Positions 23 to 5,776 of a stretch of 64,000 nucleotides of DNA are shown here, in pieces (within the stretch, counting starts at the first letter, position 1; each line of letters begins with the position of its first letter). Below the pieces are notes generated by a model, which saw only the letters and a list, made by a program, of their open reading frames with translations, made no database searches and had not been told where the DNA came from. This DNA is from Deltaproteobacteria bacterium (GTDB lineage: Bacteria > UBA10199 > JACPAL01). Both the position numbers and the translations under genes were made by a program. The stretch lies in the NCBI GenBank assembly GCA_016180855.1, contig JACPAL010000002.1, forward strand, positions 1 to 64,000, written 5' to 3'.

Positions 23-95
23 GCTCCCATCGTCTAGAGGCCTAGGACGGTGCCCTCTCACGGCATAAACACCGGTTCGAATCCGGTTGGGAGCA
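23..95 (+). tRNA. tRNA-Glu (anticodon CTC)
   Basis: A full cloverleaf can be folded. The acceptor arm is GCTCCCA/TGGGAGC (23-29 with 88-94) with discriminator A95. The anticodon stem is GTGCC/GGCAT with one G-T pair, and the 7-nt loop CTCTCAC carries anticodon CTC at 57-59. The T arm is ACCGG-TTCGAAT-CCGGT. The 3' CCA is not encoded; CAA follows. The gene is the left border of an accessory segment, and its last bases recur near 1744. Confidence 0.95.
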
Positions 96-99
96 CAAA

Positions 100-380: not shown

Positions 381-429
381 TACCGGGAATCCCGGTAGCT
401 TGACACATTACCGGGATTCCCGGTAATAT
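381..429 (+). promoter_or_regulatory. Promoter with two perfect inverted operators
   Basis: A perfect 17-bp palindrome TACCGGGAATCCCGGTA (381-397) sits just upstream of a consensus -35 box TTGACA (400-405). Its exact reverse complement TACCGGGATTCCCGGTA (409-425) fills the 18-bp spacer and touches the -10 box TAATAT (424-429). Operator centres are 28 bp apart. The ATG of the next gene begins 6 nt after the -10 box, so transcription should start at or next to the start codon. No Shine-Dalgarno sequence is present. A repressor bound here would block RNA polymerase; no HTH regulator is encoded next to it. Confidence 0.8.
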
Positions 430-435
430 GTCCGC

Positions 436-1407
436 ATGAAGATACATCTCCCCAATAGCGCCTTCTTGGGAAATATTGACCCGTTTATTCGCGGGTTTGA
501 TCCCTTGAATCCCACTTCGTTGGCAATCACTTCCAATGATAAATGGATTTCTGTTCATCCGGTTGTGCTCTCAATGATTGCCGCATTGGGGTTGACCCTC
601 AACCCAGATCACATCCATTTTGATAAGTTGGAGGCCAAATCAAAACATTACCTTGTGCGGATGGGACTTTTCGAAATTCTGGGAATCTCGTCCGGTATTA
701 ACGTCGTAGAACATGAACCAGCAGGGAGATTTATTCCAATCACTCAAATTAAAACATCTAACGAGCTCACCAAATTTATTACGGAGATGATTCCATTGCT
801 CCATCTGGAGGCGGAGCAGTCACAGACTATTGGATATATTGTGAGTGAGCTCGTTCGAAATGTGATTGAACACGCAGGGGCACAAAATGGTGCGCTTCTT
901 TGCGCTCAATATTATGAAAAAAGCAATTCCATCCGCATTGGCATTGCCGACACTGGCGTAGGAATCAAAAAAACAATCAATCAGTCCCATATGGCCAAAA
1001 CAGATTTACAGGCGATTCAGCTGGCGTTAACCCCCGGAATTACAGGCACTACAGGTAAAGAAGGCGGCACGGAACAAAATGCCGGTGCGGGACTATTTTT
1101 CATCAAATCGATTGCCTTCGTAAATCGGGACTACTTCACTATTTATAGCGGAAACGGTTTTTATAAACTTTTGAAGCGCACATCTGATAAACAGATTTCG
1201 TTGCACGCTGATCCATTTGATGACAGGCATTCTATCGGATCCGAGAGAGGAGTGTTTCCATATTGGAATGGAACGATAGTGGGAGTGGATATTACGCTCG
1301 ATCAAACCAAGGAATTCTCTCTACTGTTAGATGCAATCCGTAAAACATATAGTTCAGCTGTACGCGAACGGAAAAGGGAACGTTACAAAAAACCAAAATT
1401 TATATGA
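436..1407 (+). CDS. GHKL-fold ATP-binding protein paired with STAS protein
   Basis: A 323-residue protein with a Bergerat/HATPase_c fold in its second half. It shows an N box with SELVRNVIEHA (137-147), a G1 box DTGVGI (172-177) and a glycine-rich lid GGTEQNAGAG (210-219). The first 120 residues have no recognised domain, and no phospho-acceptor histidine domain is visible. It is therefore not a normal sensor kinase and is closer to anti-sigma-type kinases (SpoIIAB/RsbW class). Its stop overlaps the start of the STAS gene by 4 nt. It starts with ATG 436 directly after the operator-bearing promoter and has no Shine-Dalgarno sequence. I infer a kinase/ATPase switch acting on the STAS partner; the output is unknown. 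Confidence 0.8.
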   Translation: MKIHLPNSAFLGNIDPFIRGFDPLNPTSLAITSNDKWISVHPVVLSMIAALGLTLNPDHIHFDKLEAKSKHYLVRMGLFEILGISSGINVVEHEPAGRFIPITQIKTSNELTKFITEMIPLLHLEAEQSQTIGYIVSELVRNVIEHAGAQNGALLCAQYYEKSNSIRIGIADTGVGIKKTINQSHMAKTDLQAIQLALTPGITGTTGKEGGTEQNAGAGLFFIKSIAFVNRDYFTIYSGNGFYKLLKRTSDKQISLHADPFDDRHSIGSERGVFPYWNGTIVGVDITLDQTKEFSLLLDAIRKTYSSAVRERKRERYKKPKFI

Positions 1408-1700
1408 AGATAATTACCATTTTTAAAGAGGCGGGAGCCTTTGCCGAAAACAAGGATGTCGCAAGGAACATGCGCTTGCAGGAAATAATACCTGCTCTGG
1501 AAAATCATGAAGAGGTTATTCTGGATTTCAGCCAGGTCACTGCGGCGACTCAGTCATTTGTGCATGCCCTTATTAGCGATGTATTGAAAAAGTTTGGAAA
1601 CGGCGTTTTGGATCGTATTTCATTTAAATCTTGCAATGACACCGTCAAAAAAATTATAGGGATCGTAGTAGACTATATGCAGGAAGGCATGGGGGATTAG
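1404..1700 (+). CDS. STAS-like protein (DUF4325 family)
   Basis: A 98-residue protein matching the STAS-like DUF4325 pattern: a beta strand and turn with VILDFSQVTAATQSFVHAL (about residues 37-55), followed by an alternating helix/strand pattern. In anti-anti-sigma STAS proteins the regulatory Ser lies at the start of the helix after this strand; here Thr49 and Ser51 are candidates. The start codon overlaps the ATPase gene by 4 nt (ATGA), implying coupled translation and a fixed stoichiometry. Such ATPase/DUF4325 pairs recur in accessory DNA, but no sigma factor is adjacent here, so the target of the switch is not evident. Confidence 0.75.
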   Translation: MKIITIFKEAGAFAENKDVARNMRLQEIIPALENHEEVILDFSQVTAATQSFVHALISDVLKKFGNGVLDRISFKSCNDTVKKIIGIVVDYMQEGMGD

Positions 1701-2270: not shown

Positions 2271-3419
2271 TCAAGCGATAATCTTCCCTGACCAAAGCTC
2301 TTCTAAAAAGATATTCCAGGGCAAAATTCGAATATCACCGGCCAAGCGTGGTGAAGAGTCCAGAGAAACTAAAATTGATTTGTTAACTTTATATTCCTCC
2401 TGAAATGCCTTGAGTCCCTTTAAGTGTTTCTCTTGAGCCAAAGAAGTTCCCTTGATCTCAAGGGCGATCTCATGATCCCCCAAAATAAAGTCAACTTCCA
2501 TTTGGGAACTTGTTCTCCAGAAAGAGATTCCATAATTAAGCCGCGAATAATGGCTGTGCGTTACGATTTCATGATAAATGAAATGTTCCAGCGCCTTACC
2601 GAAAACCTCGCTCCCTTTTTCAATTTTACCTCTCTTCAAAAGAAAATTTACAATTCCCATATCAAAAAAATAAAATTTTGGGGCTTTTGTTACACGTCGT
2701 TTCGGTCTCTTTTGATACACGGGAAGAAATCTCCCAATCAGAGTGTCTTCGAGAATTTGAAAATAATTCCTGACCGTGCTCGAATAGACACCGCAATCGC
2801 TGGCAATGTTCGTATGGTTCACCTGTTCTCCATTACTGAATGCGGCCCCCTCCAAAAATTTTGAAAAAGCCTGCAAATTGCGCGTTAGAGCTTCTGCGAA
2901 GATTTCCTCTTTGAGGTAGTCCCCGACATACGCATGAATGAGGTCTATGGGAGCTTCATGCAGGTAGTGTTGGGGTAGAAGTCCGTGGTTTAAGGCGCGA
3001 AGAAGGTCAAAATTGGGAATTTCCTTGTAGACGAGCGGGTAGAGTTCGTACCGGACGGCACGCCCACCCAAAAGATTTCCTGCCCCCCTTTTCAGCTTTC
3101 TGGCACTGGAACCGCTTAAGATAAATTGGGTATCGTACTTTGTTATTAAGTGTTGAACGATATCCAGCAGCCTCGGAATTTTTTGAATTTCGTCGATGAT
3201 GACAGGCTTTCGGTTTTTGGCTTCCGCTAAAACTTTTTCCTGAAGGAGGCCGGGGTTGAGGGTCAATTCTTCATAGAGTCGTGGATCAAGTAAATCGAAC
3301 AGAAGTGAATCGCTAAAAATTTTACCAAGAAGACTTGTCTTGCCAACCTGTCGTGGACCCCATAGGAAGCAGCTAGAATTATTTAGGTTTTTAAAGGTTT
3401 GGAGACGATTGAGGAACAC
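2271..3419 (-). CDS. AAA_14/DUF4143 family ATP-binding protein
   Basis: A 382-residue protein of the archaeal/bacterial AAA_14-DUF4143 class. Walker A is GPRQVGKTSLLG (about 20-31), Walker B is PVIIDEIQKIP (about 72-82), and a sensor-1-like LSGSSARKLKRG (about 100-111) follows. A winged-helix-like middle and a C-terminal DUF4143 segment with a PD-(D/E)XK-like pattern (EVDFILGDHEIALEIKG) complete it. The biological role of this family is poorly known; members are common in accessory DNA. The start is GTG 3419 with no Shine-Dalgarno sequence, 4 nt after a putative -10 box. Length fits the family, so it appears intact. Confidence 0.85.
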   Translation of the reverse strand: MFLNRLQTFKNLNNSSCFLWGPRQVGKTSLLGKIFSDSLLFDLLDPRLYEELTLNPGLLQEKVLAEAKNRKPVIIDEIQKIPRLLDIVQHLITKYDTQFILSGSSARKLKRGAGNLLGGRAVRYELYPLVYKEIPNFDLLRALNHGLLPQHYLHEAPIDLIHAYVGDYLKEEIFAEALTRNLQAFSKFLEGAAFSNGEQVNHTNIASDCGVYSSTVRNYFQILEDTLIGRFLPVYQKRPKRRVTKAPKFYFFDMGIVNFLLKRGKIEKGSEVFGKALEHFIYHEIVTHSHYSRLNYGISFWRTSSQMEVDFILGDHEIALEIKGTSLAQEKHLKGLKAFQEEYKVNKSILVSLDSSPRLAGDIRILPWNIFLEELWSGKIIA

Positions 3420-4527: not shown

Positions 4528-4893
4528 TCACGCCGCCAAGTTGAATTCGACCGTGTCGTACTCAACCACAGGCATTCTTACCTTTCGTCCAGATACCGTG
4601 GCCGTCTTGACCCTCACGGCTCCAACTTCCTCAAAGAAAAGGATGATCTTGTTTAAGTTAGAAACATCCATTTTTGTAATCTTAGCCAGCTCATAGATTG
4701 ATTTCGGTTTGAAGATCAGGATGTACTTCAGAACGTGTAAGTTCCTGGCAAATCGATCGAAATCGTTTTTATTGTCAAAACTGACTTCGTAGTGTGGTTC
4801 TTTTGGAGTCGCTTTTTTTGCCTTGCGAAATGCCCTTTTGAAATCATCCAGGATCTCATCAGCGGTCTTTAGTGACACAATAAGGTGTTTCAT
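4528..4893 (-). CDS. HTH (MarR-like) DNA-binding protein, predicted antitoxin
   Basis: A 121-residue protein with a winged-helix core: SIYELAKITKMDVSNLNKIILFFEEVGAV (about 66-94) reads as the recognition helix plus wing of the MarR/HVO_A0114-like group. The N-terminal 60 residues are basic and probably mediate dimerisation or toxin contact. Its ATG overlaps the stop of the upstream TumE-like gene by 4 nt, so the two are co-translated, with the toxin-like gene first. By analogy with TumE/TumA modules it is the antitoxin and autorepressor. The AT-rich dyad at the shared promoter (5189-5202) is a plausible target. Confidence 0.75.
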   Translation of the reverse strand: MKHLIVSLKTADEILDDFKRAFRKAKKATPKEPHYEVSFDNKNDFDRFARNLHVLKYILIFKPKSIYELAKITKMDVSNLNKIILFFEEVGAVRVKTATVSGRKVRMPVVEYDTVEFNLAA

Positions 4894-5180
4894 ATCTTCA
4901 CCCCCATGTTTTCAAAAATTAATGTTTTAAAGTCTTTGATCAACTTTTCCTCGCCTGAGAATTCATAGGCTATTTCCTGGCTATCCAAATGAACATGGGG
5001 CCCTTTGGGATGATGGTTGTCCATGAGAATCTTTTTCCCGCTCTTTAGGTCAGCCAATACAAGTCCATACTTAATTCCATGAGGATACTTCTTCGAGAGT
5101 CCGACCTTATGTATCTCCATTTCAAGAACATACCGTCCCTGAAGACGAGCCTTATGCCAGTAGACCAGGACGGCCTTCAT
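4890..5180 (-). CDS. TumE-family toxin-like protein
   Basis: A 96-residue protein matching the TumE/DUF6516 pattern: an N-terminal strand with basic residues (MKAVLVYWHKARLQGRYVLEM), a middle YGLVLADLKSGKKILMDNHHPKGPHVH segment with a histidine cluster, and a C-terminal helix LIKDFKTLIFENMGVKI. The conserved NHHPKGPHxH motif (about 54-63) is typical of the family. It is the first gene of a two-gene operon with an HTH partner. No Shine-Dalgarno sequence precedes ATG 5180; a promoter with its -10 box 8 nt upstream suggests a leaderless transcript. The biochemical activity of the family is not known to me. Confidence 0.75.
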   Translation of the reverse strand: MKAVLVYWHKARLQGRYVLEMEIHKVGLSKKYPHGIKYGLVLADLKSGKKILMDNHHPKGPHVHLDSQEIAYEFSGEEKLIKDFKTLIFENMGVKI

Positions 5181-5317: not shown

Positions 5318-5776
5318 ATGCTGATCAAAACAATCATCTCAGGCGGTCAAACGGGGGTCGACCGGGCGGCGCTGGATGTTGCCTTAGAGTTAGAAATTCC
5401 CTGCGGCGGTTGGTGTCCGAAGGGACGGCAGGCCGAAGACGGCACGATTGATTCGATTTATCCGCTTCAGGAAACCCCTTCGAAAAATTACTCCCAACGA
5501 ACGGAATGGAACGTCCGTGATGCCGATGGGACTTTGATCCTTACTTGGGGTCTACCCTCTGGCGGAACCGCCTATACGATCGAATGTGCCAGAACGTATC
5601 GAAAGCCTCTTCTGATCGTGGAGATGAAAAAGTCTCCTTCAAAAGCAGTTTTCTTAAGATGGATTACAGAGCATCAGATAAAGAAGCTCAATGTCGCCGG
5701 CCCAAGGGAAAGCCTTTTTCCGGGATTTATCTATAAGGAAGCGAGACAAATTCTGATGAATTGGCTGGGGCCTTAA
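5318..5776 (+). CDS. YpsA/SLOG-family putative molybdenum carrier-like protein
   Basis: A 152-residue Rossmann-like SLOG protein. The N-terminal IISGGQTGVDRAALDVALE (6-24) is the phosphate/nucleotide-binding loop of the family annotated as putative molybdenum carrier (cpYpsA-related). GGWCPKGRQAEDG (30-42) and GTLILTWGLPSGGTAYT (71-87) are the other conserved blocks. SLOG proteins are thought to bind or process nucleotide-derived ligands; the carrier name is historical. It stands alone and diverges from the TA operon. The start is ATG 5318; no strong ribosome site. Full family length. Confidence 0.85.
   Translation: MLIKTIISGGQTGVDRAALDVALELEIPCGGWCPKGRQAEDGTIDSIYPLQETPSKNYSQRTEWNVRDADGTLILTWGLPSGGTAYTIECARTYRKPLLIVEMKKSPSKAVFLRWITEHQIKKLNVAGPRESLFPGFIYKEARQILMNWLGP

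Follow-up and report, generated by a model that had tools for sequence, protein, structure and literature searches.

The two overlapping genes near the start of the window (the whole 64,000-nucleotide stretch of deltaproteobacterial DNA that was analysed) form a compact switch, in which a SpoIIAB-like ATPase is combined with a small STAS partner. It looks like a stand-alone relative of the newly described DNA-damage-triggered immune switches, and on balance we favor the reading that it is a self-regulating kinase-STAS switch that acts on its own and is related to CapK/CapS and VapK/VapS, systems described together with the toxin VapC (EMBO J 2026, PMC13373217). The operator in front of the genes and the gene pair are inherited together and co-vary in the diverged members, and the simplest reading of this is a cis-encoded autoregulation by the pair.

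The original prediction of a self-contained GHKL/STAS pair at this place is confirmed by the open reading frames, the domain matches and the fold models (Table 1). The end of the GHKL reading frame is joined to the start of the DUF4325 frame by a 4-bp ATGA overlap, which bears out the proposed translational coupling, and an overlap of 4 bp with the STAS gene is found in nearly all intact copies examined. The product of 436-1407 matches HATPase_c_2 (E=6e-7, above the gathering cut-off), and that of 1404-1700 matches DUF4325 (E=7e-12). The AlphaFold model of the 323-aa protein (pLDDT 86) has a STAS-like fold at the N-terminus followed by the GHKL domain, for which the best reliable Foldseek match in the PDB is SpoIIAB (1tid, probability 0.99, TM 0.70 on the target). 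The HisKA/DHp module is absent from this protein, so that the expectation of a SpoIIAB-like fold lacking a histidine-kinase module holds. The model of the 98-aa protein is matched best by RsbS (6jhk, probability 0.99, E 0.019), and across the family the STAS partners have 94-104 aa and consist of the STAS domain alone. No HTH or other known DNA-binding domain is recognisable in either protein of the pair.

Table 1. Features of the module and its surroundings in the window.
Feature	Position	Strand	Remarks
tRNA-Glu	23-96		real, but the window begins at the contig end
Operator palindrome 1, TACCGGGAATCCCGGTA	381-397	.	upstream of -35; same place in nearly all close relatives
-35 hexamer TTGACA	400-405	+	between the palindromes; TTGAC kept there in most bacterial relatives
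Operator palindrome 2, TACCGGGATTCCCGGTA	409-425	.	28 bp from palindrome 1; runs into -10
-10 hexamer TAATAT	424-429	+	6 nt to ATG; 6-8 nt in several relatives
STAS-GHKL ATPase/kinase	436-1407	+	323 aa; relatives at 48-86% identity
Phe10, motif PNSAFLGN	463-465	+	putative equivalent, by position, of the ssDNA-stacking CapK Trp68
N-box E138-L-V-R-N142-V-I-E-H146	847-873	+	SpoIIAB-like SExxxNxxxH; E138, N142 and H146 invariant (29/29)
Basic C-terminal tail RERKRERYKKPKFI	1360-1404	+	after a long helix; kept across the family
DUF4325 STAS partner	1404-1700	+	98 aa; without C-terminal extension
T49-Q50-S51-F52 loop of the STAS protein	1548-1559	+	invariant (28/28)

The promoter region contains two palindromes (TACCGGGAWTCCCGGTA) placed 28 bp apart around the -35 element and at the -10 element. 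Four palindrome matches are observed in the window versus 0.18 expected from shuffles, and the palindromes have no further copy (with up to two mismatches) in the rest of the 2.2-Mb genome, in line with the tight operator control that had been anticipated. Given that a generic promoter scan alone is not significant (1 found versus 3.4 in shuffles), the evidence for the promoter and operator is their conservation across genomes; the arrangement of the window, with a palindrome on either side of the -35 and contact with the -10, recurs in most close relatives. Since only 6 nt separate the end of the -10 hexamer from the ATG, the transcript is probably leaderless.

Relatives of the kinase in the identity range given in Table 1 were found in Elusimicrobiota, Saganbacteria, Collierbacteria, Berkelbacteria and Woesearchaeota, and further ones in a deltaproteobacterium placed in Myxococcota and in a spirochaete (Spirochaetota). 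In the phylum to which the window belongs, 8 of 46 genomes have the module; in Patescibacteria, the phylum around the Collierbacteria genome, it was found in 9 of 380, two of the nine being partial. The gene tree intermingles phyla, in agreement with horizontal transfer, although binned genomes call for their customary caution. The archaeal members bear directly on the suggestion that the pair follows anti-sigma logic. SpoIIAB-like GHKL and RsbS-like STAS folds would suit a classical anti-sigma factor/anti-anti-sigma factor pair acting on a host sigma factor; however, no sigma factor is linked to the module, and among 279 genomes sampled from the archaeal phylum of a Woesearchaeota genome, 11 carry the module. 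Archaea use TBP/TFB and, to our knowledge, have no sigma factors. Because relatives live in such hosts, anti-sigma logic in the strict sense is not supported: the archaeal members cannot have a sigma factor as their output, sigma factors are ruled out as the general output, and this explanation of the module is highly improbable.

No conserved neighboring gene was found among 18 loci, and the neighbors of the module across relatives are mostly ordinary genes. This agrees with the earlier remark that neither a sigma factor nor an output gene is attached, and does not support a defence-island setting. The proposed link to a tRNA did not hold either, given that adjacency to a tRNA is not conserved in the relatives, and a tRNA integration site for the module was rejected for the same reason. 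The two archaeal loci that were checked lie among archaeal genes: one is near a TrmB-type regulator as well as an MtrA/thymidylate synthase gene, and the other near an archaeal helicase. Further along the window, an overlapping pair at 4528-5180 (-) matches a TumE toxin and an HVO_A0114-type antitoxin, 5318-5776 (+) encodes a circularly permuted YpsA SLOG-family protein, and 2271-3419 (-) encodes an AAA_14/DUF4143 ATPase, with a similar gene near the archaeal module locus L015.

The conservation of the operator was evaluated by its geometry, defined as the outer half-sites with an exact gap of 25 bp (28 bp center to center) and up to two mismatches. Of 26 genomes that carry the module, 21 have this geometry, which lies at the module with the exception of two weak off-module matches; the reversed pattern used as control gives 0 in all 26. 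Those off-module single palindromes that were examined sit in coding regions, and a regulon made up of such sites was therefore rejected. Among 341 Elusimicrobiota genomes, 28 carry the geometry with up to one mismatch, and 22 of these have a family match directly behind the operator (19 with both genes at full length, 3 decayed or cut); the other six comprise one orphan operator without module, one contig edge and four chance-like matches. At four loci (L271, L290, L094 and L019) the operator persists although the module has disappeared, carries an internal deletion or is cut short. In the diverged clade, with 57% (L018), 54% (L090), 53% (L091) and 48% (L092) identity to the window protein, the half-sites differ and the spacing around the -35 is about the same. 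The archaeal members have the same half-sites around a TATA box. There, a palindrome precedes the TATA-like box, which is conserved (ATTTATAAATA), and another half-site comes about 39 bp later, close to where transcription should start.

Binding by the pair itself is the best explanation for these observations, given that the spacing is kept under two kinds of RNA polymerase, that there is no other genomic target and that the operator changes together with the protein. The fact that the pair travels with its own control site indicates a direct self-regulation and not one that goes through sigma factors. The lack of a visible DNA-binding domain in the pair would be accounted for if the operator were read by a conserved host regulator, but such a regulator is very unlikely in view of an operator that is absent elsewhere in the same genomes, is the same in bacteria and archaea, and has changed in step with the proteins of the diverged clade. 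We infer, therefore, that the pair itself binds the operator and represses; it would then probably recognize a specific DNA sequence without the help of an HTH.

The same organization is also reminiscent of a toxin-antitoxin-like selfish unit, in which one protein is harmful when free, the other restrains it and the complex autorepresses the operon. Overlapping genes, autoregulation through a palindrome, the absence of fixed neighbors and a patchy spread across phyla are all in agreement with such a unit, as are the decayed copies that retain the operator after internal deletions, the toxin-antitoxin pair nearby in the window and the existence of VapKSC as a kinase-STAS toxin system (PMC13373217). 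Nonetheless, no toxin domain was found in the GHKL protein or in the STAS protein, and the strictly conserved GHKL catalytic residues are better explained by a signaling role, which makes a selfish unit unlikely.

For the kinase-STAS switch that we favor, the conserved residues suggest where signaling would take place. The GHKL catalytic residues E138, N142 and D172 and the glycine motifs are invariant across the family alignment. Thr49 and Ser51, which the original prediction had named as sites to be tested for phosphorylation, are invariant in 28 of 28 STAS proteins, and the Ser51-Phe52 motif is common to CapS and to phage and plasmid STAS proteins. The profile alignment places Gln50 in the column of VapS Ser48, which makes Ser51 (or Thr49) the more likely acceptor; from its conservation, Ser51 is the candidate phospho-acceptor, and it may correspond to CapS Ser54, a correspondence that relies on an inferred tag numbering. 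In the known kinases aromatic residues stack on ssDNA (W68 in CapK and F54 in VapK; PMC13373217). Of 29 family members, 28 have an aromatic residue (Phe, Trp or Tyr) at position 10 of the GHKL protein, and the proposed pairing of this position with CapK Trp68 comes from a hand alignment of the strand and helix order to a CapK-like protein, in a region that automatic alignments leave unplaced. The basic C-terminal tail is missing from the CapK-like and the plasmid and phage relatives and is a candidate operator-binding element. The residues distinguishing one operator class from the other are dispersed, without pointing to any one reading surface.

In the mechanism proposed, the pair, either as a complex or through one of its partners, would in the resting state occupy both half-site pairs, which are spaced by 28 bp, and hold its own leaderless promoter closed. 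By homology, the trigger would be ssDNA produced when DNA is damaged or a phage replicates, and it would be sensed in the cleft that the STAS domain forms with the GHKL domain. The ATPase/kinase activated in this way would then phosphorylate Ser51, in the Ser-Phe motif of its STAS partner; the assembly on the DNA would come apart, and the operon would be de-repressed in a burst. Homology to CapKS and VapKSC (PMC13373217) makes a response to stress or phage plausible. With no known output gene, a pair that regulates only itself would bring no obvious benefit, which speaks against this model; the pair of proteins may act as its own effector, or foreign DNA carrying the operator may be a second target. 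A partner-switching control of an unlinked effector, with the operator merely setting the level of the pair itself, would be compatible with the fold and the active site, and related pairs do act on different partners (sigma factors, VapC and DNA). Such an effector is nonetheless quite unlikely, given that the extreme diversity of hosts, archaea included, would demand a target that is universal or co-transferred, and that no neighbor is conserved.

Viral contigs, unexpectedly, also contain copies of the operator. With the 25-bp gap, the exact outer half-sites occur in 22 contigs, or about 17 after merging evident relatives, compared with 12 in total for gaps of 16-23, 13 for a gap of 24 and 7 in total for gaps of 26-32; most other spacings give about one to two each, and a rearranged-motif control gives 1 over 7 spacings. 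The inner halves of the gap-25 sites have on average 3.7 mismatches in 12 versus 8.5 at other spacings (Mann-Whitney p 5e-7, the viral matches being not fully independent). Copies of the 28-bp-spaced operator include L063:10954-10996, L056:1735-1777 and those of about 20 further contigs. The copy in L063 lies directly upstream of a small phage gene, and other copies are inside coding regions, including portal and replication-initiation genes. Several of them fall in proline-/glycine-rich coding stretches, which may contribute to the excess at gap 25, but the gaps of 22, 28 and 31, which such coding should also favor, are not enriched. These copies may be decoys, hijacked regulation or chance codon effects. 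Relatives of the module proteins were not found in the viral contigs with two short peptide patterns as the only queries, nor at E 0.01, in a search without positive control, in 22 viral records (21 of the 22 exact-site contigs and L056). The diverged-operator pattern has matches in viral contigs at other spacings and none at 25 among the matches listed, and one operator-bearing phage protein has no host link in the 341 Elusimicrobiota genomes. A more far-reaching version of the proposal, namely a cross-domain stand-alone anti-phage/DNA-damage switch that binds DNA directly by a non-canonical surface and is countered by phage decoy operators, often in linker-coding parts of structural and replication genes, is rather unlikely as a whole. 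The viral copies do make the connection to phages testable, and a defined operator is now available for direct tests.

This module extends the newly found kinase-STAS immune controllers by a solitary form that occurs in bacteria as well as archaea. In the literature, no treatment of the function of DUF4325 is apparent in full texts that mention it, and the CapKS paper does not use this name (PMC13373217). A connection to DISARM DrmA was rejected, given that the match to the PADLOC model PDLC02567 covers no more than the N-terminal ~390 of its 1750 positions and no helicase was found; this part of the model matches a GHKL and a STAS protein, which suggests fusion members or a mixed model.

Several known systems share parts of this design. 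SpoIIAB/SpoIIAA, RsbT/RsbS and RsbW/RsbV combine a GHKL kinase fold with a STAS fold, whereas the module has an N-terminal STAS fused to the GHKL domain, is linked to no sigma factor and is found in archaea. The phage families phrog_3364 and phrog_5816 and the GHKL+STAS pairs of the Marinitoga phage MPV1 and of plasmids have the same architecture as the module, and one 441-aa profile of phrog_5816 matches both module proteins, but identity to the module is about 20-30% and no twin operator was found upstream. A CapK/CapS-like pair flanked by IS elements is located at L306:2599-4341, on the Acinetobacter johnsonii plasmid pXBB1-8; its kinase, a relative of the module kinase, is paired with a CapS-like protein that matches solved CapS structures.

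The closest comparison is with CapKS and VapKSC, where GHKL kinases activated by ssDNA phosphorylate their STAS partners and thereby switch immunity genes or a toxin, the phosphorylated partner leaving DNA (CapS, which binds through a wHTH) or the toxin (VapS) (PMC13373217). Like CapK/CapS, the module is a gene pair of kinase and substrate with palindrome autoregulation, GHKL catalytic residues and a Ser-Phe motif in the STAS protein. It differs in that the kinase has no HTH and begins at the STAS-like fold (a CapK-like comparison protein has an extra N-terminal stretch of ~60 aa), the STAS protein has no wHTH, no immune operon lies behind the module and the operator is CCGGGAWTCCCGG versus the TTAA half-sites of CapK/CapS. 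Like VapKSC, it has a STAS-GHKL kinase that carries no HTH and, behind it, a small STAS protein, and the best PDB sequence match of its STAS profile is VapS (9z7o, E=0.005). Unlike VapKSC, it has no adjoining VapC/PIN gene in the window and no conserved third gene in the relatives, its STAS protein lacks the VapS-type C-terminal extension and has a Gln at the column of VapS Ser48, and its strong palindromic operator is conserved in bacteria and archaea. Membership of CapKS or VapKSC thus fails on the defining features (HTH, wHTH, VapC and immune operon). In fold the module works like these systems, and in switching it probably does so as well.
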